A DNA stretch of 30,723 bases, taken from positions 1 through 30,723 of the IMG/VR virus record IMGVR_UViG_3300025887_000102; one strand, written 5' to 3'. Below, piece after piece: positions 4,403 to 29,301 of this stretch. Made by a program: the position numbers and the translations under genes. The notes under the pieces were generated by a model, which did no database searches, was not told the origin of the DNA, and worked only from the letters and a program-made list of their open reading frames with translations. This DNA comes from a virus. Every line of letters starts with the position of its first letter. The stretch's first letter is position 1.

Positions 4403-4858
4403 CTAAACGTTGTTGCTCTGAGCATACACAACCGTTACAGCGCCGACACCGTTGCCAGTATTAGCTGTGGTCACAATCAAACGGTGATCGCCCGTGCCTG
4501 TGTTTAGCCATTTTGCTGTGCGGGTTGCATCAGTACCGGGACTAGCCGCGACAATACCTACAGCGTTGCCTTGGATCGCGCCCGCCGCTGTCAAAGAAGT
4601 GGCTGCACCTACGCCGCCTAACCCTAGAGTTGTAGCCCCACCGCTCCAAGCCGTGGTCACAGTAACATCAATAGATATCAACTGGCTGTTGGCTGGAATT
4701 ATAATGTTTGTAGTTGTGGTTGTGGCAGTCTGGTCAATCGCTGCTGTCTGAGACATTGCAACAAAGCCTGTGTTCTTCATGTCTGAACCAACAGTCGTTC
4801 CAGTGGTGTTTTTAATGGTTCCGGCCTTAATAGGGCCTGAAAAAGTAGTCGTACCCAT
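4403..4858 (-). CDS. Thr/Ala/Gly-rich structural protein
   Basis: 151 aa. The start at 4858 (MGTTTFSGPIKAGTIKNTTG) is set by an AGGAG ribosome-binding site 7 nt upstream; a longer in-frame reading to 4885 lacks one. Composition is Thr/Ala/Gly rich with beta-strand periodicity (IIIPANSQLISIDVTVTT), typical of phage surface or decoration proteins. I recall the TFSGPxKAGTI-NTTGT opening from marine phage structural modules. It is the first gene after the terminator that follows the major capsid gene. Exact function unknown. Confidence 0.7.
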   Translation of the reverse strand: MGTTTFSGPIKAGTIKNTTGTTVGSDMKNTGFVAMSQTAAIDQTATTTTTNIIIPANSQLISIDVTVTTAWSGGATTLGLGGVGAATSLTAAGAIQGNAVGIVAASPGTDATRTAKWLNTGTGDHRLIVTTANTGNGVGAVTVVYAQSNNV

Positions 4859-4942
4859 GTCAATCTCCTGTCTGGGTTTAGTCAAGCACAGGGTGCGCTT
4901 GTCAGGGAATAAATAACGTATAACACAAATTAACCAAAAAGA

Positions 4943-11089: not shown

Positions 11090-13512
11090 CACTGACTCCT
11101 CTGCTTCATCATTTCACGCTGCATTGCACTCTCAATGCGCTGGTTCGTTTGCTTCTCTTGGCTCTCAAGCCGCTGTTGGAATTGCTGACCACGCATCTGC
11201 TGATTTTGAGCATCAAGCTGAAGTCTTGCCTGATCCATCTGAGCGTCTGACTGTTCCGACTGCGCCTTAATCTCCAACTCTTTCTCTTTAAGCTGTACCA
11301 GAGGATCAGGGCCCTGACCAGATATTTGTCCAGACAACTGCTTAACCTGCTGCATACCCTGCGCAATCAACTGAGCAACAACCGCCTGATACTGCATCTC
11401 CATCTGAGCCTCGTCACCGCCCTGCGCTTGCTGCATCTGTTGCATACCAGCCTCTTCAGCCTGTATCTTAACATGCTCCAAAACATGCTTCTGTAAAGCA
11501 ACCGCAACCTGCGGCATCTGACCAACCATCGGAGTCGCGCCAAAAATTAAATGCGCCATAATATGAGACTGATGGTCCTGACCCGCAAACGCACGTAACT
11601 CCATCATGTCCAAAGCGTTTATGTTCTCCTGTGCAGGGTCCAAGGGCCGCGGTTCGTCGTCCGGCACCGCCTTCATTATCCTGTCAACGTCCGTAACGCC
11701 CAACGATTCATACATATCACGATATACCTCGTGCATGTTGTGCATCTCAGGAGCCTGCGCCGCTAACTGCATCTTAGTCTGAGATAACGCAATCCGCTGC
11801 GCCTGACTAAATACATTCGGATTACTGACAGGAATTACGTCCACACGATCATCAAAATCAGACGCCATGATGCTCGACTCGTCACCAGCAACAGAATACG
11901 GATACTCTTGCGGTAAACTCTCCGACATTACCCGCGCCAAAATCTTAAACTCCTGACGCATGGCATAATGTAAACGCTTGTGAACCGCGCTCATTACTCG
12001 CGAACCCTGCTCCAACATCGCTATCGTTGTGCCAACCGCCGCGTTCTGATTACCGTCACCAACCTTCATGTCAGTAATGGTCGCGAACCGCTGTCCAGCC
12101 TGTACAACAAAACCCAATAACTCAAACAACGTCCGGTCAGGACCCTTAAACGGCAAAGGCATTAAACTGTCCCGAATAGCCCCACCCGGAGCATCTACGT
12201 CCCTAAACTCCCCCGGTTGTAAAGGATCGTCGTCGTCCCTAATCCGAAGTCCGCGGGCCTTGAACCCCGCAGGTAAGTTCGACAAAGTACCAGCATCAAT
12301 CAACTGCCGCAAAGCACTGGTCGCGGTCCGCGATAATCCACCAATAGTATGGATCAAGCCCAAGCCGTAGAACCCAAATCCCGGTAAAAACTTAAAGTGC
12401 GTAAAATATGCAATCTTCTTTTTAGCCGGATCGTCCTCACGGTAATTACGCCGAATAGATAAAACCTGACCGTTGTCCTGAGAAATAGTAACAAGATAAG
12501 GAACCTTAATGCCCGTAGGCTCCCCGTCCTCGTCTAAATCCTCATAACCCTCTAAGTCCAAATCAACGTGACACTCCAACAAAGTGCAGTCGTAATCAAT
12601 CTGCGAAGGCTCAATGCCGTCAATCCGGTTTATCTCAGAATCAACCTCCGTAACATCACCCTGCGCAGGTATCACGTCTATATCTAAATAAACCCCAGCA
12701 AGCTGCTTCTTACGCAAATCATTTAAATCCATCCGTATAAGCTGACTTATATTCGGACACGTATCCAAATCAGAAGTATCATACGGAACAACCAAATTCT
12801 GTGCCGGAACAAACTTACTTACAGCGCGGTCCATGACCTCATCATAATAAGTCTTCTTAAACGTGCTGCCAGCAAGCGGTAAATAAAACAACATCTGATC
12901 CATGTCAGGAGTGTAATCCTCCATGACACTCGTAATGTAGTAATTCATAAACTGACGAACCCGCTTGGCCTGATCTACCTTAGCATGAGTCTCCTCACCC
13001 ATAACCTGCGTTCGTACAGGACCACCCGCAGGCAATAGCTCGTTAAACGCCTGCGCCTGAAACTGCGTAGCAGCTTCCGCCAACAAAGGATGCGTTACAC
13101 CACTGGAACCACGAAACGGCTGAGTGCGCTCCTCGTAATTAAATCCCAACAACTCCAAACCATCCGTATACGCATCTTCCCAATCCTGACGACCAGCCTT
13201 GTTAGCATCAAACTCCCCCGCTAAGTCATTGCCAATGCGACTAAGTTCGCGGTCCGGCATCTCTTCCGCCAAGTTAGCGTAAAAATCACCGCCCTCACCG
13301 CGCATGTCCTCGGGATCAAAATCTACCGTAACCCCGCCGTCATCCTCCTCAGAGATCGCTATCTCCACATCAGAATCTACCGCATACAACATAGGGTCCG
13401 CGCCAGAGTCCGGTATTTCTATCTCCAACTCAGCGCGTAAATCGTCCTCGTCAAGCTGACTCGGTACGTTCGTATCCATCAATCCGCCAATAGCCATAGC
13501 CGTCTCCGTCAA
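11089..13512 (-). CDS. Portal protein, P22-like
   Basis: 807 aa, within the size range of P22-type portals. The core carries NKAGRQDWEDAYTDGLELLG, YEERTQPFRGSSGVTHPLLA, FQAQAFNELLPAGGPVRTQV and FYLPLAGSTFKKTYYDE, a recurrent portal signature in marine podovirus-like phages. The first about 100 residues are strongly acidic and the last about 130 are Gln/Met-rich coiled coil, which fits a long barrel or crown. It forms the dodecameric DNA channel and docks the terminase and adaptors. Its start overlaps the terL stop by 4 bp. Confidence 0.85.
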   Translation of the reverse strand: MTETAMAIGGLMDTNVPSQLDEDDLRAELEIEIPDSGADPMLYAVDSDVEIAISEEDDGGVTVDFDPEDMRGEGGDFYANLAEEMPDRELSRIGNDLAGEFDANKAGRQDWEDAYTDGLELLGFNYEERTQPFRGSSGVTHPLLAEAATQFQAQAFNELLPAGGPVRTQVMGEETHAKVDQAKRVRQFMNYYITSVMEDYTPDMDQMLFYLPLAGSTFKKTYYDEVMDRAVSKFVPAQNLVVPYDTSDLDTCPNISQLIRMDLNDLRKKQLAGVYLDIDVIPAQGDVTEVDSEINRIDGIEPSQIDYDCTLLECHVDLDLEGYEDLDEDGEPTGIKVPYLVTISQDNGQVLSIRRNYREDDPAKKKIAYFTHFKFLPGFGFYGLGLIHTIGGLSRTATSALRQLIDAGTLSNLPAGFKARGLRIRDDDDPLQPGEFRDVDAPGGAIRDSLMPLPFKGPDRTLFELLGFVVQAGQRFATITDMKVGDGNQNAAVGTTIAMLEQGSRVMSAVHKRLHYAMRQEFKILARVMSESLPQEYPYSVAGDESSIMASDFDDRVDVIPVSNPNVFSQAQRIALSQTKMQLAAQAPEMHNMHEVYRDMYESLGVTDVDRIMKAVPDDEPRPLDPAQENINALDMMELRAFAGQDHQSHIMAHLIFGATPMVGQMPQVAVALQKHVLEHVKIQAEEAGMQQMQQAQGGDEAQMEMQYQAVVAQLIAQGMQQVKQLSGQISGQGPDPLVQLKEKELEIKAQSEQSDAQMDQARLQLDAQNQQMRGQQFQQRLESQEKQTNQRIESAMQREMMKQRSQ

Positions 13513-14960
13513 TAATATGCGTGTACCCTAGCAGATGTTTCGTCATCTTGCCAATCATCTGTTGGCAACTGCACAAAATTGCCCTGACGATACCTCATCA
13601 AAGCTTGTGTAGCACTGTCAACTAAATCATCAAACTCACCATTGGGAAACGCCGCCATCTCCTCAATTAACTCGTCCGCCCAACTCTTGTCAGGAGCATA
13701 CACCATACCAGCCTCAAATAAAGGACTAACACTATGCAATCGCGTTACCTTGTCATTGCCCCTACTCGGCGTGAAATTTACAACAGGTATCCCAACCTGA
13801 CGCATCTCCTGCGTCAAAGGAGTCCCACTCGCCTTCGCTTCCACAATCACAGTGTCAGGCTCCCAAAACTTGTATTCCTCAAAAGCAATCCGCTTTAATT
13901 CAGGAAAATCCCAACGACCCTTCTTACTATCCAACAATATTAACGCAGGGGACCCACCATCCTCTTCAGGATAAAACACACCCCACGTCGTAATAGCACT
14001 GTAATCAGCACTCTCCCGCTTGCTAAACGCAGTGTCATAACTCTGTATCACATACTGTAAGTTAGGGACCCGCTCACTCTCCCAACGCTGCCACCACTCC
14101 CGAGGAACAATCGCGTTCTCATCTCCAGTAGGGTTCTGCTGGTACTGAGCATTCCACTTCATAGGAGGAATAGACGCCTTGACCGCGGTTAAATCCTCAA
14201 TACTCCAATACTCCGGCCAACAAGGAGTGTCGTCCTCAAAAATAGCAGGTAACTCAACAACCTCCCACTGATCCGCTAAAGGGTCCTTAGCCATAGCACG
14301 TAACAACTGACCCGTCATGTCCTTCTCAGACCACCGAGTCTGTACCAAAACTATAGAACCTCCGGGCTGTAGGCGCTGCCGAGGGCCCCCAGTGTACCAA
14401 TCCCAAGCGTCAGTAAAACCGTTCGTACTCATTGCCGTCTGCTCAGAATGTGGGTCGTCAATAATAATTAAATCACCACCACGACCCGCTAAGTTAGAAC
14501 CAACTCCAACAGCATAATACATCCCACCAGCACTCGTGTCCCACCGACCAGAAGCCTTCGAATCCGCCGCTAACTTAACGTGAGGAAATACCCCCTTATA
14601 CTCATCCGTGTCCAAAAGATTCTTAGTCTTACGACCAAAGTTTACTGCCAACTCCGTCGTGTGAGTCGCCTGAATGATCTTCATACTAGGATTCTTGCCC
14701 ATCATCCACGCAGGAAACAAAAAGGATGCAAACTCAGACTTCGTGTGCCGCGGAGCCATGTTGATAATTAAACGCTTTAACTCGCCACTCGCAACACGCT
14801 CCAACTTCTCAGCAATAATACGGTGATGACGACCCGCAATAAAGTCAGGCCACATACCCCTCACAAACGGTAAAAAATTGTTACGCTGAGACTCCTGCTT
14901 CTCTATTTGTGCAAGTCTAAGTTGAAGTTTCAGAGCCTTTTCTTGTAGTGCGATAGTCAC
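13509..14960 (-). CDS. terL: Terminase large subunit
   Basis: 483 aa with a GTG start at 14960 and a G-rich ribosome-binding region. ATPase: a variant Walker A, APRHTKS (residues 69-75), Walker B LIIIDD (164-169), and VLVQTRWSEKD (204-214) as the coupling motif. Nuclease: Asp309 in SYDTAFSKRESADYSA, Glu374 in VIVEAKASG, and Asp444/445/448 in FDDLVDSA form the RNase-H-like metal site. It packages DNA into the prohead through the portal and cuts it. It is separated from the small subunit by about 5.8 kb, which is unusual. It is the first gene of the late operon. Confidence 0.9.
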   Translation of the reverse strand: MTIALQEKALKLQLRLAQIEKQESQRNNFLPFVRGMWPDFIAGRHHRIIAEKLERVASGELKRLIINMAPRHTKSEFASFLFPAWMMGKNPSMKIIQATHTTELAVNFGRKTKNLLDTDEYKGVFPHVKLAADSKASGRWDTSAGGMYYAVGVGSNLAGRGGDLIIIDDPHSEQTAMSTNGFTDAWDWYTGGPRQRLQPGGSIVLVQTRWSEKDMTGQLLRAMAKDPLADQWEVVELPAIFEDDTPCWPEYWSIEDLTAVKASIPPMKWNAQYQQNPTGDENAIVPREWWQRWESERVPNLQYVIQSYDTAFSKRESADYSAITTWGVFYPEEDGGSPALILLDSKKGRWDFPELKRIAFEEYKFWEPDTVIVEAKASGTPLTQEMRQVGIPVVNFTPSRGNDKVTRLHSVSPLFEAGMVYAPDKSWADELIEEMAAFPNGEFDDLVDSATQALMRYRQGNFVQLPTDDWQDDETSARVHAYY

Positions 14961-15622: not shown

Positions 15623-15643
15623 AGGCCCGCACTGGGCGGGCCT
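15623..15643 (-). terminator. Rho-independent terminator after the 73-aa gene
   Basis: An 8-bp stem AGGCCCGC/GCGGGCCT with a 5-nt loop is followed on the minus strand by TTTTCTTTTAG. It closes the accessory block before the repeat region and late operon. Confidence 0.8.
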
Positions 15644-15890: not shown

Positions 15891-15912
15891 TGTTGCGGTT
15901 CTCCAATAAGTA

Positions 15913-15964
15913 AGGGCGGGATTGCCCCGCCCTAAGATTAGCCTGATCCATGTGATTTCGTCAA
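15913..15964 (-). promoter_or_regulatory. Promoter and 5' hairpin of the 73-aa gene
   Basis: TTGACG (15964-15959), an 18-bp spacer and TAATCT (15940-15935) are followed at once by a hairpin (15933-15913): AGGGCGGG / CCCGCCCT with loop GCAAU. The hairpin precedes the TTATTGGAGAAC ribosome-binding site. The -35 overlaps the stop codon of the upstream gene. The same promoter/hairpin/RBS order recurs at three other genes in this block. Confidence 0.6.
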
Positions 15965-16152
15965 GTGTGGGCGTATCCGTCACGCTCAATGCATAGCCAC
16001 ATGTTAGCCCAATATACCGTAACGGCGTCATCGCAATAGAACGTGTCTTTCACGCTCTCAAGAAAGCGTTCAAGCGTCGGGCGGGTGCTTTCGTCCAGTT
16101 CGGACCATTTGCGTTCCAGCGTGTCGCGCTGGGCGGTTGTCATATTAATCAT
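15961..16152 (-). CDS. Small accessory protein, unknown
   Basis: 63 aa reading MINMTTAQRDTLERKWSELD and then PTLERFLESVKDTFYCDDAV and YWANMWLCIERDG. The start is uncertain: ATG at 16152 has GGAAAG upstream and follows the preceding stop by 4 bp; ATGs at 16179 and 16143 are alternatives. It is helical with no recognised family. It is the last of a probable three-gene unit beginning at 16626. Confidence 0.6.
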   Translation of the reverse strand: MINMTTAQRDTLERKWSELDESTRPTLERFLESVKDTFYCDDAVTVYWANMWLCIERDGYAHT

Positions 16153-16156
16153 AGTT

Positions 16157-16330
16157 TCACTTTCCGGCTCGTCTGCCATGTTTGGTTGTCCAGCGGTTAA
16201 AGTTAACCTTTCCACCTTTGGAATGTTTCCGGTTGCTGTCGGCTGCTCTGCGCTCGGCTCGGCTCTTTCGGGGGTCTGCGGGGGTCTTGGTAGTCAAACC
16301 ATTTAAACAGACGCCTACTCCACCTCTCAC
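16157..16330 (-). CDS. Possible small basic protein (GTG start)
   Basis: 57 aa, basic and low in hydrophobics (DPRKSRAERRAADSNRKHSK, then WTTKHGRRAGK). The GTG at 16330 overlaps the upstream stop as GTGA and has GGGG a few bases upstream; a longer reading from an ATG at 16360 lacks a usable site. It fills the gap between two accepted genes, but its composition could also arise from non-coding GC-rich DNA, so the call is tentative. Confidence 0.35.
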   Translation of the reverse strand: MRGGVGVCLNGLTTKTPADPRKSRAERRAADSNRKHSKGGKVNFNRWTTKHGRRAGK

Positions 16331-16626
16331 AGTCTGCCCCAGCTGGTCACGTCCGGCCATACCTCGGCAAAGTCTGCAAGGCTCTGGCTTGTTGCGCCAT
16401 TGTCAATGAACGGGTGCATCTTGCTATCGATCAAGTGAAAGTCGCTATCGCTGGGGTGCGCGGTGTCCAGCAAATTAATCAGGTCGTAATCGTTCCAAGT
16501 GGTGGCGTCTGTGAAGCCTTCTAGGTACGCTCTGGCTCCGGCAATACTGTTGCTATCGTGCAAAACAGTATGGCTCTCGGTGCCGTCCGCTTCGAAAGTG
16601 CTGGCTTCGATTGTATATCGTTTCAT
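16327..16626 (-). CDS. Accessory protein, unknown
   Basis: 99 aa, acidic, alpha/beta (MKRYTIEASTFEADGTESHT, then SIAGARAYLEGFTDA and SQSLADFAEVWPDVTSWGRL). The ATG at 16626 follows AGGAGAAC at good distance. No family is recognised. It begins a short unit with its own promoter and 5' hairpin and follows a terminator, so it is expressed independently of the gene before it. Small acidic proteins in phage accessory blocks sometimes act against host systems, but nothing specific supports that here. Confidence 0.65.
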   Translation of the reverse strand: MKRYTIEASTFEADGTESHTVLHDSNSIAGARAYLEGFTDATTWNDYDLINLLDTAHPSDSDFHLIDSKMHPFIDNGATSQSLADFAEVWPDVTSWGRL

Positions 16627-16649
16627 AGTTTTGGTTCTCCTATAGGCAA

Positions 16650-16705
16650 GCGGGCAGGATGCCCGCCGCTCCTGCAGTATGGGATATCTTACCTCGAGGT
16701 GTCAA
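16650..16705 (-). promoter_or_regulatory. Promoter and 5' hairpin of the 99-aa gene
   Basis: A perfect TTGACA (16705-16700), an 18-bp spacer and CATACT (16681-16676) are followed by a hairpin GCGGGCA/UGCCCGC (16666-16650) and then the AGGAGAAC ribosome-binding site. It is one of four similar modules in this block; here the hairpin starts about 9 nt after the -10 instead of directly after it. Confidence 0.55.
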
Positions 16706-16715
16706 ACATAAAAAA

Positions 16716-16735
16716 GGCCCGCGCTATGGCGGGCC
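16716..16735 (-). terminator. Rho-independent terminator after the 145-aa gene
   Basis: A 7-bp stem GGCCCGC/GCGGGCC with a 6-nt loop is followed on the minus strand by TTTTTTATG, 25 bp after the stop at 16761. Confidence 0.8.
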
Positions 16736-16760
16736 GAGTTGGGCAAGGTTGGGCGGGTGT

Positions 16761-17198
16761 TTAACCGAGTGTGATCTTTGCGCCTCTCAAAACATCTTCC
16801 ACAATCTCGGTCACCTCGTCGTTAATATCGCGCTCCGATACAATTTCTTCAATTTCGGATTGGAACGACGCGATATCAAAATTGTAAGTAATATCTTCGC
16901 GGATTTCGTCGAAATAATCGGTGATATCAAAAGCGGTTTCTTTTGTTTTTAATTGCTCGGCAATTTCGCCGGATATCATCGCGCCAATCTGGTCTTTATG
17001 AAGCCGCCAGAAAGCAAGCCGGATATCATCCAACAACAAAGCGTTTTCGTTGTTAAAATTGCGCTGGGTCGCGGCATCCTCTTTCGATTGCGATAGTTCT
17101 TCACGCAAGCGGGCTAGCTCCGCGTCACGGCGTTCGATCATCTCGCGGGCCGCGCTCAATTCGGTTTCATTTTCGTAGTCTGTTTTTGCAAGTTCCAT
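16761..17198 (-). CDS. Acidic coiled-coil accessory protein
   Basis: 145 aa. The ATG at 17198 follows TTGGAGAACAAA, so it is preferred to a longer reading from 17228 that would start inside the leader hairpin. Residues 12-55 form a probable coiled coil (REMIERRDAELARLREELSQ). The rest is acidic (EIREDITYNFDIASFQSEIE). No family is recognised. It is a single-gene unit with its own promoter, 5' hairpin and terminator. Confidence 0.7.
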   Translation of the reverse strand: MELAKTDYENETELSAAREMIERRDAELARLREELSQSKEDAATQRNFNNENALLLDDIRLAFWRLHKDQIGAMISGEIAEQLKTKETAFDITDYFDEIREDITYNFDIASFQSEIEEIVSERDINDEVTEIVEDVLRGAKITLG

Positions 17199-17221
17199 TT
17201 TGTTCTCCAAAACAAAGTTAA

Positions 17222-17272
17222 GGGGCAAGGTTTCCCCTGCCCCAATATGCGTGATTGTAAAGCGCAGATCAA
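17222..17272 (-). promoter_or_regulatory. Promoter and GAAA-capped 5' hairpin of the 145-aa gene
   Basis: TTGATC (17272-17267), a 17-bp spacer and CATATT (17249-17244) are followed directly by a 9-bp RNA stem (17243-17222), GGGGCAGGG / CCUUGCCCC, capped by GAAA. One pair is G-U in the minus-strand RNA and would be an A-C mismatch on the other strand, so the structure appears to belong to the minus transcript. The RBS follows 14 nt later. Confidence 0.6.
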
Positions 17273-17282
17273 GAAAAAAAAT

Positions 17283-18410
17283 TTAAGCCGCTATACGGTT
17301 CCAATCTCGGGCGTTCATATTCAACAACTGACCTCCGCGACGTTGCCAATCGTCCGCGTGATCTATGTCGCTGGTGTTGGCGACGGCGGTCACGGCGTTG
17401 ATCAAGGTTGCGCGGGACAAGGGGCGGTCGTTCTCGTATCCGGCCTGCCCTATTGTGCTCATTAAACCGTCCAACACATTCGAGGTTTCTTTTTTGGTCA
17501 AGCGCATAACGGTGCCCAGATTGTTGACCGTATCAGCAACCGAATACTCGCCTTCGATCACGTCGGCGGCGGCGGCTTTCATCTTGTCCAAAACTTGGTC
17601 AAACATTTCACGCGACGAATAGGCGGATACCAGATCACGCAGTTTTAAATTTAATGCGCGGTTGTCTGCCTCTTGCGCCTCTCCTGACAATAGGCCCCAA
17701 TCGTCGCTGTCACGGGCGCTGGTGATATGGCTGCTCCGCGTTTTGTTTTCAGTCTGCATACCATTTAAGCAAGCCAAGGTCCAAAAAAGTTGGTAAGCTG
17801 TCACGCTTCCCTGCCCCGTCTCGGAATTGCTAAACCCCACACCGTTAGCCATTACATCTGCCACGTTGGCACCCGCTCCGGTATGAACAAGCGATTTAAA
17901 CCGCATATACAACTTGCTGTCGCTAATTTTTGCGTTCACGACCTGCAATTGAGCGGCGTTTTCCATCAACGGCGGCAAAATGGTTTGAATCATATTATCA
18001 TTATCAAAGCACTTAAAACGGTCGGACAATAAAGCGCGGGCGGTGCCGTTGGTTTCATCGGTGTCGAGAAACGTTCTCAACATTTTTCTTTTAGGTTCTT
18101 TCTGAAAATGAGCGTTGATTAGCGTATCAAACTCCGCGGGGTAATGATCTTGCAAGCGTCGGGCGGTTCTAGTTTCAATATCGCAATGTGCCGCTAGTTG
18201 TTGGAAAGCAACCGAATTGATATCAAGGTGCCGCGTTGGTTCGCCGCCTTTTGCTTCGATTACTAAAGCGGGGCGGTTTGTTTCGGGGTCGGTTACTTTC
18301 TGCAAATCGTTAGTAGGGGTCAAAAAATCCGCCTTGCGGGCGGCTTGGTCCTGCACCTTTTGCATTAACTGGGTCAAGCTGCCGTGCGTGTTCTCAATCG
18401 AATGTGACAT
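17283..18410 (-). CDS. DUF932 phage/plasmid-type protein
   Basis: 375 aa. The pattern is that of DUF932 proteins: HLDINSVAFQQLAAHCDIET, RARRLQDHYP-like region, RTFLDTDETNGTARALLSDRF followed by KCFDNDNMI, LYMRFKSLVHTGAG, GVGFSNSETGQGSVTAYQLF, and a helical C-terminal half. The family is common on plasmids and phages; its biochemical role is not established, although replication or recombination is often supposed. The ATG at 18410 with GGAG 9 nt upstream is preferred to a longer reading through the leader hairpin. It has its own promoter module and lies next to a Cys-rich gene that often accompanies it. Confidence 0.85.
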   Translation of the reverse strand: MSHSIENTHGSLTQLMQKVQDQAARKADFLTPTNDLQKVTDPETNRPALVIEAKGGEPTRHLDINSVAFQQLAAHCDIETRTARRLQDHYPAEFDTLINAHFQKEPKRKMLRTFLDTDETNGTARALLSDRFKCFDNDNMIQTILPPLMENAAQLQVVNAKISDSKLYMRFKSLVHTGAGANVADVMANGVGFSNSETGQGSVTAYQLFWTLACLNGMQTENKTRSSHITSARDSDDWGLLSGEAQEADNRALNLKLRDLVSAYSSREMFDQVLDKMKAAAADVIEGEYSVADTVNNLGTVMRLTKKETSNVLDGLMSTIGQAGYENDRPLSRATLINAVTAVANTSDIDHADDWQRRGGQLLNMNARDWNRIAA

Positions 18411-18432
18411 TGTGTAAGTCTCCAAAGTTAAA

Positions 18433-18484
18433 GGGGCAGGATTGCCCCGCCCCATTACATATAGAAACCCGCATACATAATCAA
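18433..18484 (-). promoter_or_regulatory. Promoter and 5' hairpin of the DUF932 gene
   Basis: TTGATT (18484-18479), a 17-bp spacer and TATGTA (18461-18456) are followed by an 8-bp RNA stem GGGGCGGG/CCUGCCCC with loop GCAAU (18453-18433). One pair is a G-U wobble only in the minus-strand RNA. The same -10 (TATGTAAT) is seen in the promoter of the predicted short RNA near 25.64 kb. Confidence 0.6.
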
Positions 18485-18494
18485 GCGAAAATTT

Positions 18495-19205
18495 CTAATC
18501 GTGCGTTTCCTCGCCTATATCACCCGCTATATGGTGCCGGATAATTGAACGGGGCGGCAAGCCAGAAACAAAGCGGCGCAATTTATCCCCGTCTGTCTCG
18601 TCCTGATCCTGCGCGGCTGTAGCAGTCCAGTGCAAGGCAACGTTACCCCCACTAGCATAGCAACCGCCCGCTTCATCTGGGTTGGCGGCTTTCTTTTTAC
18701 TCGCACCGTGGGCAGTAAATCCAACTGCAAAAGTTCTTTCGAGCCTAGCGCATAATGGATCACCATTGCCACAGTCCGCGCAACTAAACCCCGCGATTGT
18801 TTCCGCCGGACAACGTACAATTAAAGCACCATTGACAGATTGTTTCTTTTTACCCTGCCAAAACTTTTCGCCAACTGTCACAACACAAGGCACCTTAAAC
18901 CGCATAAACTTTGCCGCGATTTCTGCGGTCTTTGCGCTGTAGTTTATCACGGTTTTATTTGCCGCAAGTTTTCGTTTCCAGTGTAACGGCGAAAAGTGGG
19001 AATAAGTGAACGATACACCTTTGGCGGGTTTGGCATCTAATACCGCGTCAAGATAATCAACATCAATTTTTGACGACCCGCAACCGCTCGGGTTTAATTC
19101 ACAACTGGCGGGGCAAGTTCCATAATTGCTACCGTTTCCGGCGCGATATGTGACAGCAATTCCCCGCGTCTTTTTTGCTCGGCTATATTCGACCGTTTTT
19201 AGCAT
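18495..19205 (-). CDS. Cys-rich phage/plasmid protein (DUF7227-like)
   Basis: 236 aa. It opens MLKTVEYSRAKKTRGIAVTY and carries two Cys clusters: CPASCELNPSGC (Cys31, 35, 42) and CADCGNGDPLC (Cys142, 145, 152), plus Cys182 in GGCYASGG. It ends with RSIIRHHIAGDIG. I recall this pattern from phages and plasmids of proteobacteria, often beside DUF932, and believe it is the DUF7227 family; function unknown. The Cys clusters suggest an Fe-S or zinc site. The ATG at 19205 overlaps the upstream stop by 7 bp and is preferred to an ATG 23 codons earlier. Confidence 0.7.
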   Translation of the reverse strand: MLKTVEYSRAKKTRGIAVTYRAGNGSNYGTCPASCELNPSGCGSSKIDVDYLDAVLDAKPAKGVSFTYSHFSPLHWKRKLAANKTVINYSAKTAEIAAKFMRFKVPCVVTVGEKFWQGKKKQSVNGALIVRCPAETIAGFSCADCGNGDPLCARLERTFAVGFTAHGASKKKAANPDEAGGCYASGGNVALHWTATAAQDQDETDGDKLRRFVSGLPPRSIIRHHIAGDIGEETHD

Positions 19206-19435
19206 AGCGTCTGAACCCCATATTCTGCCAAGGTTTCTTTTTTGGTCAATAGGTCTTTCTCGGTCAAGTTCCAAATATTTTCCGAAAACCTACGGCTATG
19301 CAAAACGCGCAACGCGCCGTGGTGCGTCGGGTAATGGCAACCTTTAGAAAGCCATTTTGTCCACATTTTTTTGCGACGGTTCCAGTATCTAGGCTGTCCC
19401 AAAACGGAATATTTCTTATAAATTACGTTAGTCAT
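19199..19435 (-). CDS. Small basic Trp-rich accessory protein
   Basis: 78 aa, basic, with MTNVIYKKYSVLGQPRYWNR then KMWTKWLSKGCHYPTHHGAL. The ATG at 19435 has GAGG 7 nt upstream and directly follows the preceding stop, so an earlier ATG is rejected. I recall no family. The Lys/Arg/Trp content suggests nucleic acid contact, which is speculative. It overlaps the Cys-rich gene by 7 bp. Confidence 0.65.
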   Translation of the reverse strand: MTNVIYKKYSVLGQPRYWNRRKKMWTKWLSKGCHYPTHHGALRVLHSRRFSENIWNLTEKDLLTKKETLAEYGVQTLC

Positions 19436-20431: not shown

Positions 20432-20854
20432 GTCGAAAAGAACAGGCCAATTAAAAGGATTTGTGCCTTCATAAACCGGATCGGTCTTTAGCCCGTCTGT
20501 TTTGACCGCGATTGCCTGATCGGCACGATACAAAAGAACGACAGGTTTTTTACCCCAGTTCTGATGCTGCTTGACCAGTATCCAACTGCTACTGTGTCGG
20601 TGCCTCGTCAGCCAAGAAACTTGGTGTGGGCTTAACCGTACCGCATTGGCCTTGCAAAACTTTAATTCTACAAAATGAAATAGCCCGCGTTCATCGCAAA
20701 TCATAAGGTCGGGTATACCCTGACCGACAGAGTTTTCTATTCTAGTCAGGCTTAACTGGGGCCTAACCTTTTTTGCGGCTGTCCTCAACTGTTGATAAAA
20801 CGCCGCTTCCGTCGGAATCTTCGGTTGGGGTAATGTCGATAATGTCTGAGCCAT
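20414..20854 (-). CDS. PD-(D/E)XK nuclease (VRR-NUC-like)
   Basis: 146 aa. The catalytic pattern is visible: GQGIPDLMICDERG with Asp49, then LFHFVELKFCKAN with Glu63-Leu-Lys65, followed by RLSPHQVSWLTRH, the Q-helix typical of VRR-NUC and Holliday-junction-resolvase-like nucleases. It should be a metal-dependent DNase acting on structured or branched DNA, perhaps before packaging. The ATG at 20854 has AAAGGA at ideal distance, which gives a 92-bp out-of-frame overlap with the end of terS, unusually long. Confidence 0.8.
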   Translation of the reverse strand: MAQTLSTLPQPKIPTEAAFYQQLRTAAKKVRPQLSLTRIENSVGQGIPDLMICDERGLFHFVELKFCKANAVRLSPHQVSWLTRHRHSSSWILVKQHQNWGKKPVVLLYRADQAIAVKTDGLKTDPVYEGTNPFNWPVLFDLISPI

Positions 20855-21422
20855 TGGATTCCTTTAGTTCCTTCAACGCTTTCATCACCTCTTCTTTATC
20901 CATGTTGTCGATACTGCCGTGTCTGATCTCCGCCTTGCTAACGTATATATCACCCTGCGCCTGTCCCCGTCTATACTCGGCTTGTACCGCGGCACTGTAC
21001 GCCCCGTTTTCGAGGGCCACGTCACGGATTTTCTGCAAGTCGCGAACGTGTCTGCTATAGTTGATGGCAAAACGTTCATCCAATTCGTTTCGATACCGCC
21101 GGATAGCTGCCACAACGTGCGGGCATTTGTGAGGGTTAGTCAACTCATATGCACGGGTGTGGGCTGAACTCTCGGGGTAGCCCGCTCGAATAGCGGCTTC
21201 CTTGTAAGTTATCATACCATCGTTGCTTACAAGCTCTTTTACAAAAAGCTCCTGTTTACGCGTCAAAGGGCTGTCCGCTGTCTTATACTTCGCGCCTCGG
21301 GGATCAGAACGGTTGGCCTCTTTATCCACGGCTAGTCCGGTATGCTTTCTAGGAATGGGCCTTGCTTTAATCCTCAAAGGCTTGGGGAGTTTTGCAAGAT
21401 CAGCATTTGTTTTTCTAGGCAC
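20763..21422 (-). CDS. terS: Terminase small subunit
   Basis: 219 aa from a GTG at 21422, chosen because GGAG lies 6 nt upstream; a GTG four codons earlier would have to use the same bases as its own start. Residues 53-88 (LTRKQELFVKELV...YKEAAIRAGYPESSAHTRAY) are the terminase_2-type helix-turn-helix that recognises packaging DNA. A central helical oligomerisation region and a polar, acidic tail follow. It recruits DNA to TerL. It is separated from terL by an accessory block, and its tail overlaps the nuclease gene. Confidence 0.85.
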   Translation of the reverse strand: MPRKTNADLAKLPKPLRIKARPIPRKHTGLAVDKEANRSDPRGAKYKTADSPLTRKQELFVKELVSNDGMITYKEAAIRAGYPESSAHTRAYELTNPHKCPHVVAAIRRYRNELDERFAINYSRHVRDLQKIRDVALENGAYSAAVQAEYRRGQAQGDIYVSKAEIRHGSIDNMDKEEVMKALKELKESNGSDIIDITPTEDSDGSGVLSTVEDSRKKG

Positions 21423-21733
21423 GGTTCTCTCCACTGCAAATAACTATACAATACCTTTTAGCAACATATAGTATACCCCGCCAGAGAAACTTTTTTTACA
21501 TTTTTTTGTTGAGATTTGGCTTAACGCAGAAGGCTGCTTAACCGTTTGGGCCAAAAAATAGCCAAAGTAACACCTATCTTTAGTATGGAGTTACCGAAAA
21601 TGTTACCGTTTTTTGCCTTATTTTTGTTTGATTACAGAGTGGTAACTTTTATAACACCGGTAACGGCTATTTATTTTCGTTTTTTTTTTTTTTAATTCTC
21701 AGGAGGGGTATAGTATACACGTTACAAACGAAA
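21423..21733. other. Non-coding AT-rich control region with GTTACC repeats
   Basis: No gene is supported. GTTACC occurs at 21590 and 21602 and, inverted, at 21641 and 21659 (three copies extended to GTTACCG), with half sites near 21566 and 21721. Long T-tracts lie at 21491-21508 and 21680-21693. GGGGTATA(C/G)TATA occurs in opposite orientation at 21465-21479 and 21705-21718, framing the region. This layout suits a replication origin or a regulator-binding region ahead of terS. Which one is unknown. Confidence 0.55.
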
Positions 21734-28305: not shown

Positions 28306-28670
28306 GTATTTACGTCTTCCCATTGATTTACTTCTGCGTAAAAGTTCCCCGTGCCGCGACTTTTGCACACTTGAGCGTTAATCCACTCTGAGTCACCACT
28401 TGTTGAAAGCCACTTAATTAATTCTGCGCGGTTAATATTTAAAGTGAACATCACCCATTCAGGAGAGCTTTCTTGCGGGGCTTTTGTGTACAGTCCTTTT
28501 ACAAACAACTTTTCTTTACGTTTCTTTTTACGTCGTTTAATGCCTAGTTCCGCGGCTAGTTTATCCGCCTTTGTCTTACACGCTTGAGCTTCTGCGGGGG
28601 AGCAAGCAGGGTCCATTGCCTTTTTTAAAAGGTTTTCTAATCTTTCGTAAGCTTCCCTTCGATTAATCAT
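28302..28670 (-). CDS. DUF2786-like protein
   Basis: 122 aa. The first 45 residues (YERLENLLKKAMDPACSPAE, then AQACKTKADKLAAELGI) resemble the DUF2786 helical domain. A very basic linker (KRRKKKRKEKLF) follows, then a C-terminal region with FTLNINRAELIKWLSTSG. The basic linker suggests nucleic acid contact. It overlaps the sigma-like gene upstream by 8 bp and is probably co-regulated with it. Function unknown. Confidence 0.6.
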   Translation of the reverse strand: MINRREAYERLENLLKKAMDPACSPAEAQACKTKADKLAAELGIKRRKKKRKEKLFVKGLYTKAPQESSPEWVMFTLNINRAELIKWLSTSGDSEWINAQVCKSRGTGNFYAEVNQWEDVNT

Positions 28671-29301
28671 TGAGAAGGTCTATGCCTCTGTTGGTTGTGC
28701 GCGGATTGTTGTTTTTCTTAAACTTTTGAAGAACACGGTTATATTCTCCGTGCCGAGAACCTGTAGTGAAGTAACCCGCAACCAAAGCTGCGCCTTTCAT
28801 CTTTCTAATGGCTTTGGCTTCTACTTGACGCACTCTTTCCCGCGTAACGCCAAAGACTCTGGCAGTCTCTTCTAAAGTATGGCCCAGTGCCCAGCGCATT
28901 GCCATGCATTGACGTTCTCTCGGGGTCAGGTTTTCAGATAACTTTGAGATAGCACTGATCTGAGACAAAGACTTTTCGGAAGTTCCGTCTTGAATTAGTT
29001 GCTTAACGCTGTCTAAATCAACTTCCATTTCAGCGGTTGATTTAATGAGCTTCAACTCACGAAGGTGGTCAGGCCATAAATCCTCGGGTTCCTTGCCCAC
29101 CATCGCCGCAACGTCCAAGGCTAAATCGGTCCAACCGTTTTGGTTAAATGGCTTTACCTTCATGGTAACCAAACTGTTTACTCTGGTTTGATGAAGGTGA
29201 CATTTACGGGCTAAATCAGCCACTGAATCGTAACGAGCCCTAATTGCTTTTAACAACCTGCCGTTTCTAACCGATATTTTAATGTTGAAATCTTCGCTCA
29301 T
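28663..29301 (-). CDS. Chimeric regulator: N-terminal HTH plus sigma-70 region 4
   Basis: 212 aa. Residues 124-168 (LTPRERQCMAMRWALGHTLE, ETARVFGVTRERVRQVEAKA, IRKM) are a textbook sigma-70 region 4, which binds the -35 element. There is no region 2 for -10 recognition and melting. Instead residues 14-80 (LLKAIRARYDSVADLARKCH then LHQTRVNSLVT and DLWPDHL) look like an Xre-type DNA-binding domain. It may be a phage transcription factor that works with host RNA polymerase or replaces region 4. I recall similar proteins in proteobacterial phages and prophages. Confidence 0.8.
   Translation of the reverse strand: MSEDFNIKISVRNGRLLKAIRARYDSVADLARKCHLHQTRVNSLVTMKVKPFNQNGWTDLALDVAAMVGKEPEDLWPDHLRELKLIKSTAEMEVDLDSVKQLIQDGTSEKSLSQISAISKLSENLTPRERQCMAMRWALGHTLEETARVFGVTRERVRQVEAKAIRKMKGAALVAGYFTTGSRHGEYNRVLQKFKKNNNPRTTNRGIDLLND

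Follow-up and report, generated by a model that had tools for sequence, protein, structure and literature searches.

A repeated phage leader with a sigma-70-type promoter and an RNA hairpin ahead of accessory genes

Known stem-loop leaders and four leaders in a phage contig

Promoter-early stem-loop (PeSL) cassettes have reportedly been described by Arbiol 2010 and Comeau 2014. Stem-loops at the 5' end of the transcript act as mRNA stabilisers in ompA and papA, and T4 gene e-type leaders have a late promoter within the left arm of their hairpin. The protection of mRNA by 5'-terminal stem-loops (PMC3997798) and by the leader of T7 gene 10 (PMC2254391) is documented, and PeSL cassettes are reported as elements of T4-like phages (cited in PMC4503421). 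Cluster K mycobacteriophages carry SAS/ESAS elements, and the study describing them saw no evidence that their repeats pair in RNA (PMC3203893). Here we describe a leader that occurs four times, always on the minus strand, in a 30.7-kb IMG/VR virus contig (record IMGVR_UViG_3300025887_000102, positions 1 to 30,723; this whole stretch is called the window below). By analogy, its proposed way of working resembles that of a T4 PeSL cassette combined with a T7 gene 10-like 5' end. The best explanation of these leaders, which we regard as rather probable, is an insulated expression unit that comes in an overlapping form (class I) and a split form (class II).

A previous sequence-only reading of the window had proposed a TTGA element, a GC hairpin and an extended ribosome site ahead of each of four start codons, and all four leaders exist in outline, each with a TTGA, a GC hairpin and a GGAG (Table 1). 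The hairpin lies about 29–39 nucleotides (nt) downstream of TTGA, and GGAG follows it at a distance of 9–13 nt. The loops that had been read as GCAAU (leaders 1 and 4) and GAAA (leader 2) were borne out, as were the weak -10 boxes; leader 3 has the loop AUCCU. The number of dinucleotide shuffles per 200 that folded as well as the native sequence was 1, 0, 16 and 1 for leaders 1 to 4. The folding energy signal is clear for leaders 1, 2 and 4 and weak for leader 3. A hairpin of this kind stands at four of the 44 minus-strand open reading frame (ORF) starts with a Shine-Dalgarno (SD) sequence in the window, which are just leaders 1–4, and at none of 12 such starts in the reversed-sequence control. 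Leaders 1, 2 and 4 belong to class I and were flagged as terminator-like; leader 3 belongs to class II.

The sequence GGAGAAC had been counted as part of the module as well, which did not hold. Leader 1 reads GGAGACTT, and there are five further sites where GGAGAAC precedes ATG but no hairpin of this kind is present, so GGAGAAC is a general strong ribosome site of the phage, outside the module. An A/U helix with the SD in its loop is suggestive in gene 2 and in the leaders of the MHDL and MENP genes but absent from leaders 1, 3 and 4, and is therefore not part of the module either. These helices (window 17199-17216, minus strand, and the MHDL/MENP leaders of loci L030-L037) read UUUGUU/AACAAA, UACAUU/AAUGUA and UUCAUU/AAUGAA; they show one apparent compensatory change and are lineage-specific.

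RNA-level selection and exchange of the leaders

Using the gene 1 protein, we fetched 59 related loci. Upstream of the gene 1 relatives, a hairpin is found in the same place with a different sequence (GGGGCGGGGCAATCCTGCCCC, GGGTGCGAGAAATCGCGCCC, AGGGAAAATGATCCCT, GGGGCAGGGGCAATCCTGCCCC), and the gene 2 homologue in L043 has an entirely different stem (AGGCCCGC...GCGGGCCT). In a loop-anchored count over 29 distinct hairpins, the seven inner positions were paired in 97.5% of cases, a share that fell to 67% when leaders were given one another's right arms; 20,000 permutations produced no value as high as the observed one. Double compensatory changes occur inside the gene families g1, g2, MHDL and MENP, so that the covariation named as a check in the sequence-only reading could indeed be found. 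An automatic pair count on a MAFFT alignment of the leaders had shown no covariation, because loops of unequal length were forced into one register, and the loop-anchored count with arm swapping took its place. The non-Watson-Crick pairs comprise, in the coding sense, 26 G.T/T.G and three A.C/C.A, many of the G.T pairs being the same inherited site. That G-U is common and A-C rare argues for selection on the RNA and not on a DNA operator. The same had been suggested before from G-U pairs in two stems, and these pairs are real (stems 1 and 2). Judged by sequence comparison, the leaders are real and their stems are under RNA-level selection; the hairpin by itself holds little sequence information.

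These data bear on two further explanations. The ESAS repeats of cluster K mycobacteriophages have been proposed to be operators, bound as double-stranded DNA by a repressor or activator. Such an operator would account for inverted repeats near a promoter and has that precedent, but it is extremely improbable here, since there is no common recognition sequence and almost every departure from Watson-Crick pairing reads as G-U in the RNA. Like SAS/ESAS (PMC3203893), the present leaders are short elements that carry inverted repeats and lie just ahead of the starts of many unrelated, non-structural genes. In contrast to SAS/ESAS, the 13-bp GGGATAGGAGCCC at the start codon is absent from our leaders, which read GGAGAAC or GGAGACTT, promoter phasing belongs to the element, and RNA pairing is strongly kept, with own arms 97.5% paired and compensatory changes.

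The second is an RNA recognition site for a phage or host factor, serving either nut/boxB- or put-like antitermination or a translational regulator. The loops GCAAU, GAAA and GAGA are GNRA-like, and GGGGCAAUCCYGCCC recurs in other phage leaders, as such a site would have it. However, loops differ among gene families (CUU, UUU, CUAC, AUCCU, UAAUCCG) and even among alleles of one gene, which leaves this explanation very improbable. Compared with lambda nut and HK022 put, there is a single hairpin with a variable loop, and boxA is absent by eye from the leader sequences (no scan was run). An Rfam search at gathering and relaxed thresholds gave nothing at the leaders, a literature search for the leader core sequence gave no text match, and blastn with leader 4 as the query found no meaningful match among phage records. 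The nut/put and the DNA-operator readings are thus both disfavoured, the former by the variable loops, the latter by the G-U departures and the missing common sequence. For the binding of a specific regulator, which had been suggested from the window alone, we found no evidence, as the loop sequence is not conserved across families.

We could also observe that leader and gene are exchanged separately. This kind of leader precedes at least 27 protein families; the 27 come from the gathered loci, some of which had been picked out by the leader pattern itself, so that the count describes a biased sample and is not a survey. The whole record G003 carries three near-identical leader copies with three unrelated genes behind them, and in the whole record G004 five genes each have a copy. 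Up to GGAG, 390 bp of the leader 4 locus are 91–94% identical among the window, L013 and L193. The homology ends at GGAG (15904-15901), and the proteins behind it are unrelated as judged by blastp; naive global-alignment identity overstates their similarity. The reverse is seen at the MENP gene, which is preceded by a class II leader in L034 but by a class I leader in L133. The earlier idea of an expression cassette was therefore largely right: the same leader does stand before different genes in relatives, the gene has been replaced behind a constant leader 4, and the leader has been replaced before MENP. By these comparisons, the leader is a module that travels independently of its gene.

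Promoter phasing, terminators and the predicted 5' end

Counted from the first T of TTG, the start of the hairpin falls at 27–34 nt in class I and at 35–41 nt in class II. U-rich tails follow the hairpin in class I, whereas class II mostly lacks them (Mann-Whitney p = 0.002, with leaders that are not independent); the exceptions are the g1 leaders of L030, L032 and L154. We looked for terminators in the 130 nt 5' of each leader. All 11 class II leaders have a canonical terminator ending 11–13 nt before TTGAC, whereas class I leaders have no near-by terminator within this stretch (one distant candidate lies at -119 in G004_4). Counted by locus, this amounts to about 3/3 in class II versus 0/14 in class I. 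In many class I leaders, the TGA of TTGAC doubles as the stop codon of the upstream gene, and textbook terminator anatomy is seen in L103, G004, G008 and G009.

The phasing recurred in new data. Viral contigs were scanned for TTGAC, 22–30 nt and GGGCRGGGCAATCCYGCCC, a pattern that permits all distances of 27–35 nt. The 23 distinct new class I leaders all had the hairpin at 30–32 nt (15 of them at 31), none had a terminator within 60 nt upstream, and their tails average 7.0 T in 10 nt. A scan with a class II pattern yielded six further loci with the hairpin near 35–37, but it had the terminator built in and is no independent test of that feature. The sequence-only reading had overlooked that the hairpin is phase-locked to the -35 element, that there is a U-rich tail and that this form and upstream terminators exclude each other; together these features point to a second role of the leader, in insulating transcription.

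In the usual sigma-70 geometry, transcription starts 35–36 nt after the first T of TTGAC. With a TTGAC-to-repeat distance of 31±1 nt, the canonical start site would lie inside the left arm in class I, while in class II the complete hairpin begins at the expected start. The hairpin had previously been placed at or after the start site. This applies to leader 3, but in leaders 1, 2 and 4 the hairpin begins upstream of the start predicted from a 17-nt spacing. When RNAs beginning at offsets 34–37 were folded, a 5'-terminal hairpin was predicted with one or more of these starts in all 23 leaders folded, in nearly every case with 0 or 1 unpaired 5' base. The few unpaired 5' nucleotides expected of a stabiliser would thus be present if the start is canonical. 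The short hairpin often forms through a second GGGGC copy that pairs with the same 3' arm. The homologous gene of phage DSL-LC04 has TTGCGC-18-TATAAT, with a perfect -10, and a hairpin (GCGGGAAUCCUCCCGC) that begins exactly 7 nt after the -10, at the expected +1.

We therefore propose as a model that each leader would be a self-contained insulated unit of a sigma-70-type promoter, a start-phased RNA hairpin, a U-rich stretch and a strong ribosome site, and that such units are placed before accessory genes and swapped between phages independently of the gene. In class I, polymerase arriving from the upstream gene would transcribe the whole repeat and the U-rich tail and tend to terminate. RNA from the leader's own promoter would start inside the left arm, making the long hairpin impossible, and would begin with a short base-paired 5' hairpin that hinders 5'-end-dependent decay. 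Class II would split the two jobs between an ordinary terminator before the promoter and a simple 5' hairpin at +1. We infer that the mRNA is base-paired at its 5' end in both classes, and that class I adds a longer, U-tailed hairpin exclusive to read-through RNA. Most leader copies probably also halt transcription coming from the preceding gene, and mRNA stabilisation by the leader hairpin is plausible by analogy with known stabilisers. A stronger form of this proposal, which we hold only tentatively, is that one inverted repeat serves two RNAs: the read-through RNA would form the long hairpin and be terminated, and the locally started RNA would form a shorter 5'-capping hairpin from the same 3' arm. 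Terminator, promoter and 5' cap would then overlap in about 60 bp and form a distinct device, shared widely among phages, by which accessory genes are plugged in.

Two narrower explanations give the hairpin a single role. The leader might be a 5' mRNA stabiliser only, like those of T7 gene 10 and ompA, with the U-rich tail serving as a ribosomal-protein-S1/translation-enhancer stretch and not as a terminator. A hairpin is indeed found at the predicted 5' end in every class, even in leaders without a U-tail, the loops vary freely, and UUUAACUUU ahead of the SD resembles the T7 gene 10 leader. As in T7 gene 10, ompA and papA, the hairpin lies at the predicted 5' end and its stem sequence is not conserved; the U-rich stretch with UUAACUUU and the strong SD are T7 gene 10-like too. 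However, T7 gene 10 has a T7 promoter instead of a sigma-70-type promoter, and here the leader is repeated before many genes. Class I repeats, unlike those of T7 gene 10 and ompA, carry a U-tail and extend 4–5 bp upstream of the predicted start with the pairing kept. Unless upstream RNA runs across this stretch of the left arm, it is hard to see why its pairing has been kept. Stabilisation alone also leaves unexplained why U-tails go mainly with class I and why class I never occurs with another terminator near by, and we consider it unlikely. Alternatively, the hairpin might be only the terminator of the upstream gene, overlapping the next promoter by chance and without a role in the downstream mRNA. 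The class I anatomy and the absence of other terminators would agree with this, but class II retains the hairpin at +1 despite a separate terminator 11–13 nt before the promoter, and the DSL-LC04 hairpin at +1 has no U-tract; this explanation appears quite improbable.

Several points weigh against the insulated unit itself. In the class I leaders of the window itself the U-tracts are weak (UUUAAC, UUAAC, UUACUUA), and termination at these sites may therefore be incomplete. The -10 boxes are poor, and the start could therefore lie elsewhere; the phage may also use its own sigma-like factor (28663-29301), shifting the promoter rules. The g1 leaders of L030 and L032 break the class rule, having a U-tail yet a hairpin at 35–36. 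Leaders from the same clade do not count as independent cases, class II is represented by only about three loci, and the idea of a short hairpin in class I arose post hoc.

PeSL cassettes are likewise small composites of a sigma-70-type promoter and a terminator-like stem-loop, lying in a variable gene region and with gene exchange at the element. In our leaders the promoter is joined to the stem-loop by TTGAC phased at 31±1 nt in 23/23 (with weak -10s), gene exchange is seen at the leader 4 locus and at MENP, and the class I sequence is terminator-like. The present phage is not T4-like by terminase and DNA polymerase (PolA) comparison, which places it nearest to the pelagiphages HTVC027P and HTVC023P, phage 023Pt_psg01 and the lake phage DSL-LC04. 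The sequence is also unrelated, and the present stem-loop differs in that it overlaps or follows the predicted start at a fixed phase, so that the mRNA would begin with it. T4 gene e-type leaders offer a further parallel, as local transcripts would start in the left arm and escape a hairpin formed by read-through RNA; here, in contrast, the ribosome site is outside the hairpin, and what we propose is termination rather than a block of translation.

Genome setting and further leader-like elements

The four leader genes sit between the genes for the small (20763-21434) and large (13509-14960) terminase subunits. Gene 1 (ATG 18410, 375 aa) belongs to phrog_1362, and genes 2–4 had no family match above curated cut-offs. 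The features of the leaders are listed in Table 1.

Table 1. Leader features and terminators on the minus strand of the window
Feature	Position	Strand	Remarks
Leader 1, -35-like TTGATT	18479..18484	-	10 nt past stop codon of upstream DUF7227 gene (18495-19274)
Leader 1, inverted repeat GGGGCGGG-GCAAU-CCUGCCCC	18433..18453	-	class I; canonical +1 would fall at 18449/18448, the start of short hairpin GGGGCAAUCCUGCCCC
Leader 1, U-rich tail UUUAACUUU, GGAG (18423-18420) and spacer	18411..18432	-	spacer leads to ATG 18410
Leader 2, -35-like TTGATC	17267..17272	-	17 nt to CATATT 17249-17244
Leader 2, inverted repeat GGGGCAGGG-GAAA-CCUUGCCCC	17222..17243	-	class I
Leader 2, tail	17199..17221	-	before ATG 17198; SD 17208-17205 looped in weak helix UUUGUU/AACAAA
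Separate intrinsic terminator GGCCCGCCATAGCGCGGGCC-TTTTTT	16716..16735	-	directly 5' of leader 3 promoter
Leader 3, promoter TTGACA-18-CATACT	16676..16705	-	matches 10/12
Leader 3, hairpin GCGGGC-AUCCU-GCCCGC	16650..16666	-	class II, without U-tract; first nucleotides of predicted mRNA
Leader 3, GGAGAAC and spacer	16627..16640	-	before ATG 16626
Leader 4, -35-like TTGACG	15959..15964	-	its TGA is the stop codon of upstream ORF 15961-16215
Leader 4, inverted repeat AGGGCGGG-GCAAU-CCCGCCCU	15913..15933	-	class I; canonical +1 would be 15929/15928
Leader 4, tail UUACUUAUU and GGAG (15904-15901)	15891..15912	-
Terminator after gene 4, AGGCCCGCCCAGTGCGGGCCT-TTTCTTTT	15623..15643	-

Some promoter regions contain inverted repeats of their own. 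In the leader 2 promoter (17267-17248, minus strand), a repeat such as TGCGC-TTTACAATA-GCGCA surrounds a TACAAT box and is mostly kept in the gene 2 homologues of L010, L018 and L021; it may be an operator. Four of the five G004 leaders (L198, 10676-12400, minus strand) have a palindrome over the -35, either TTGACTGTCAA or TTGACGCGTCAA, which is possibly an operator as well. Elsewhere in the window, 28663-29301 (minus strand) encodes a protein of 212 aa. It combines a sigma-70 region 4 domain (E 1e-15) with a helix-turn-helix-like N-terminal part and might be a transcription factor of the phage that acts on the -35 elements. The Rfam Mu-gpT-DE RNA (RF03012) was found at 4856-4907 (minus strand), between a gpT-like capsid gene and the next gene.

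A second repeated leader, here called type B, precedes many small genes of other phages. It consists of AGGAAACTCT, a hairpin of about 9 bp with variable sequence, GGGGCAATCCTGCCC, an SD and ATG, and has the core GGGGCAATCCYGCCC in common with the leaders studied here. Type B sites were seen in L126 (3842-3909 and 4336-4404, plus strand), in L110, L099, L078 and L128 and in about 35 other contigs, with no Rfam match in the loci scanned.

The leader described here looks like a ready-made socket for accessory genes. If our proposal is true, lean marine and freshwater phages would add single accessory genes without disturbing the neighbours, as the control region itself would isolate, start and protect each transcript. 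The fixed 31-nt phasing makes this idea directly testable by 5'- and 3'-end sequencing. The leader could then be used as a marker for accessory genes in metagenomes, and it may provide a compact natural insulator for gene-expression design.

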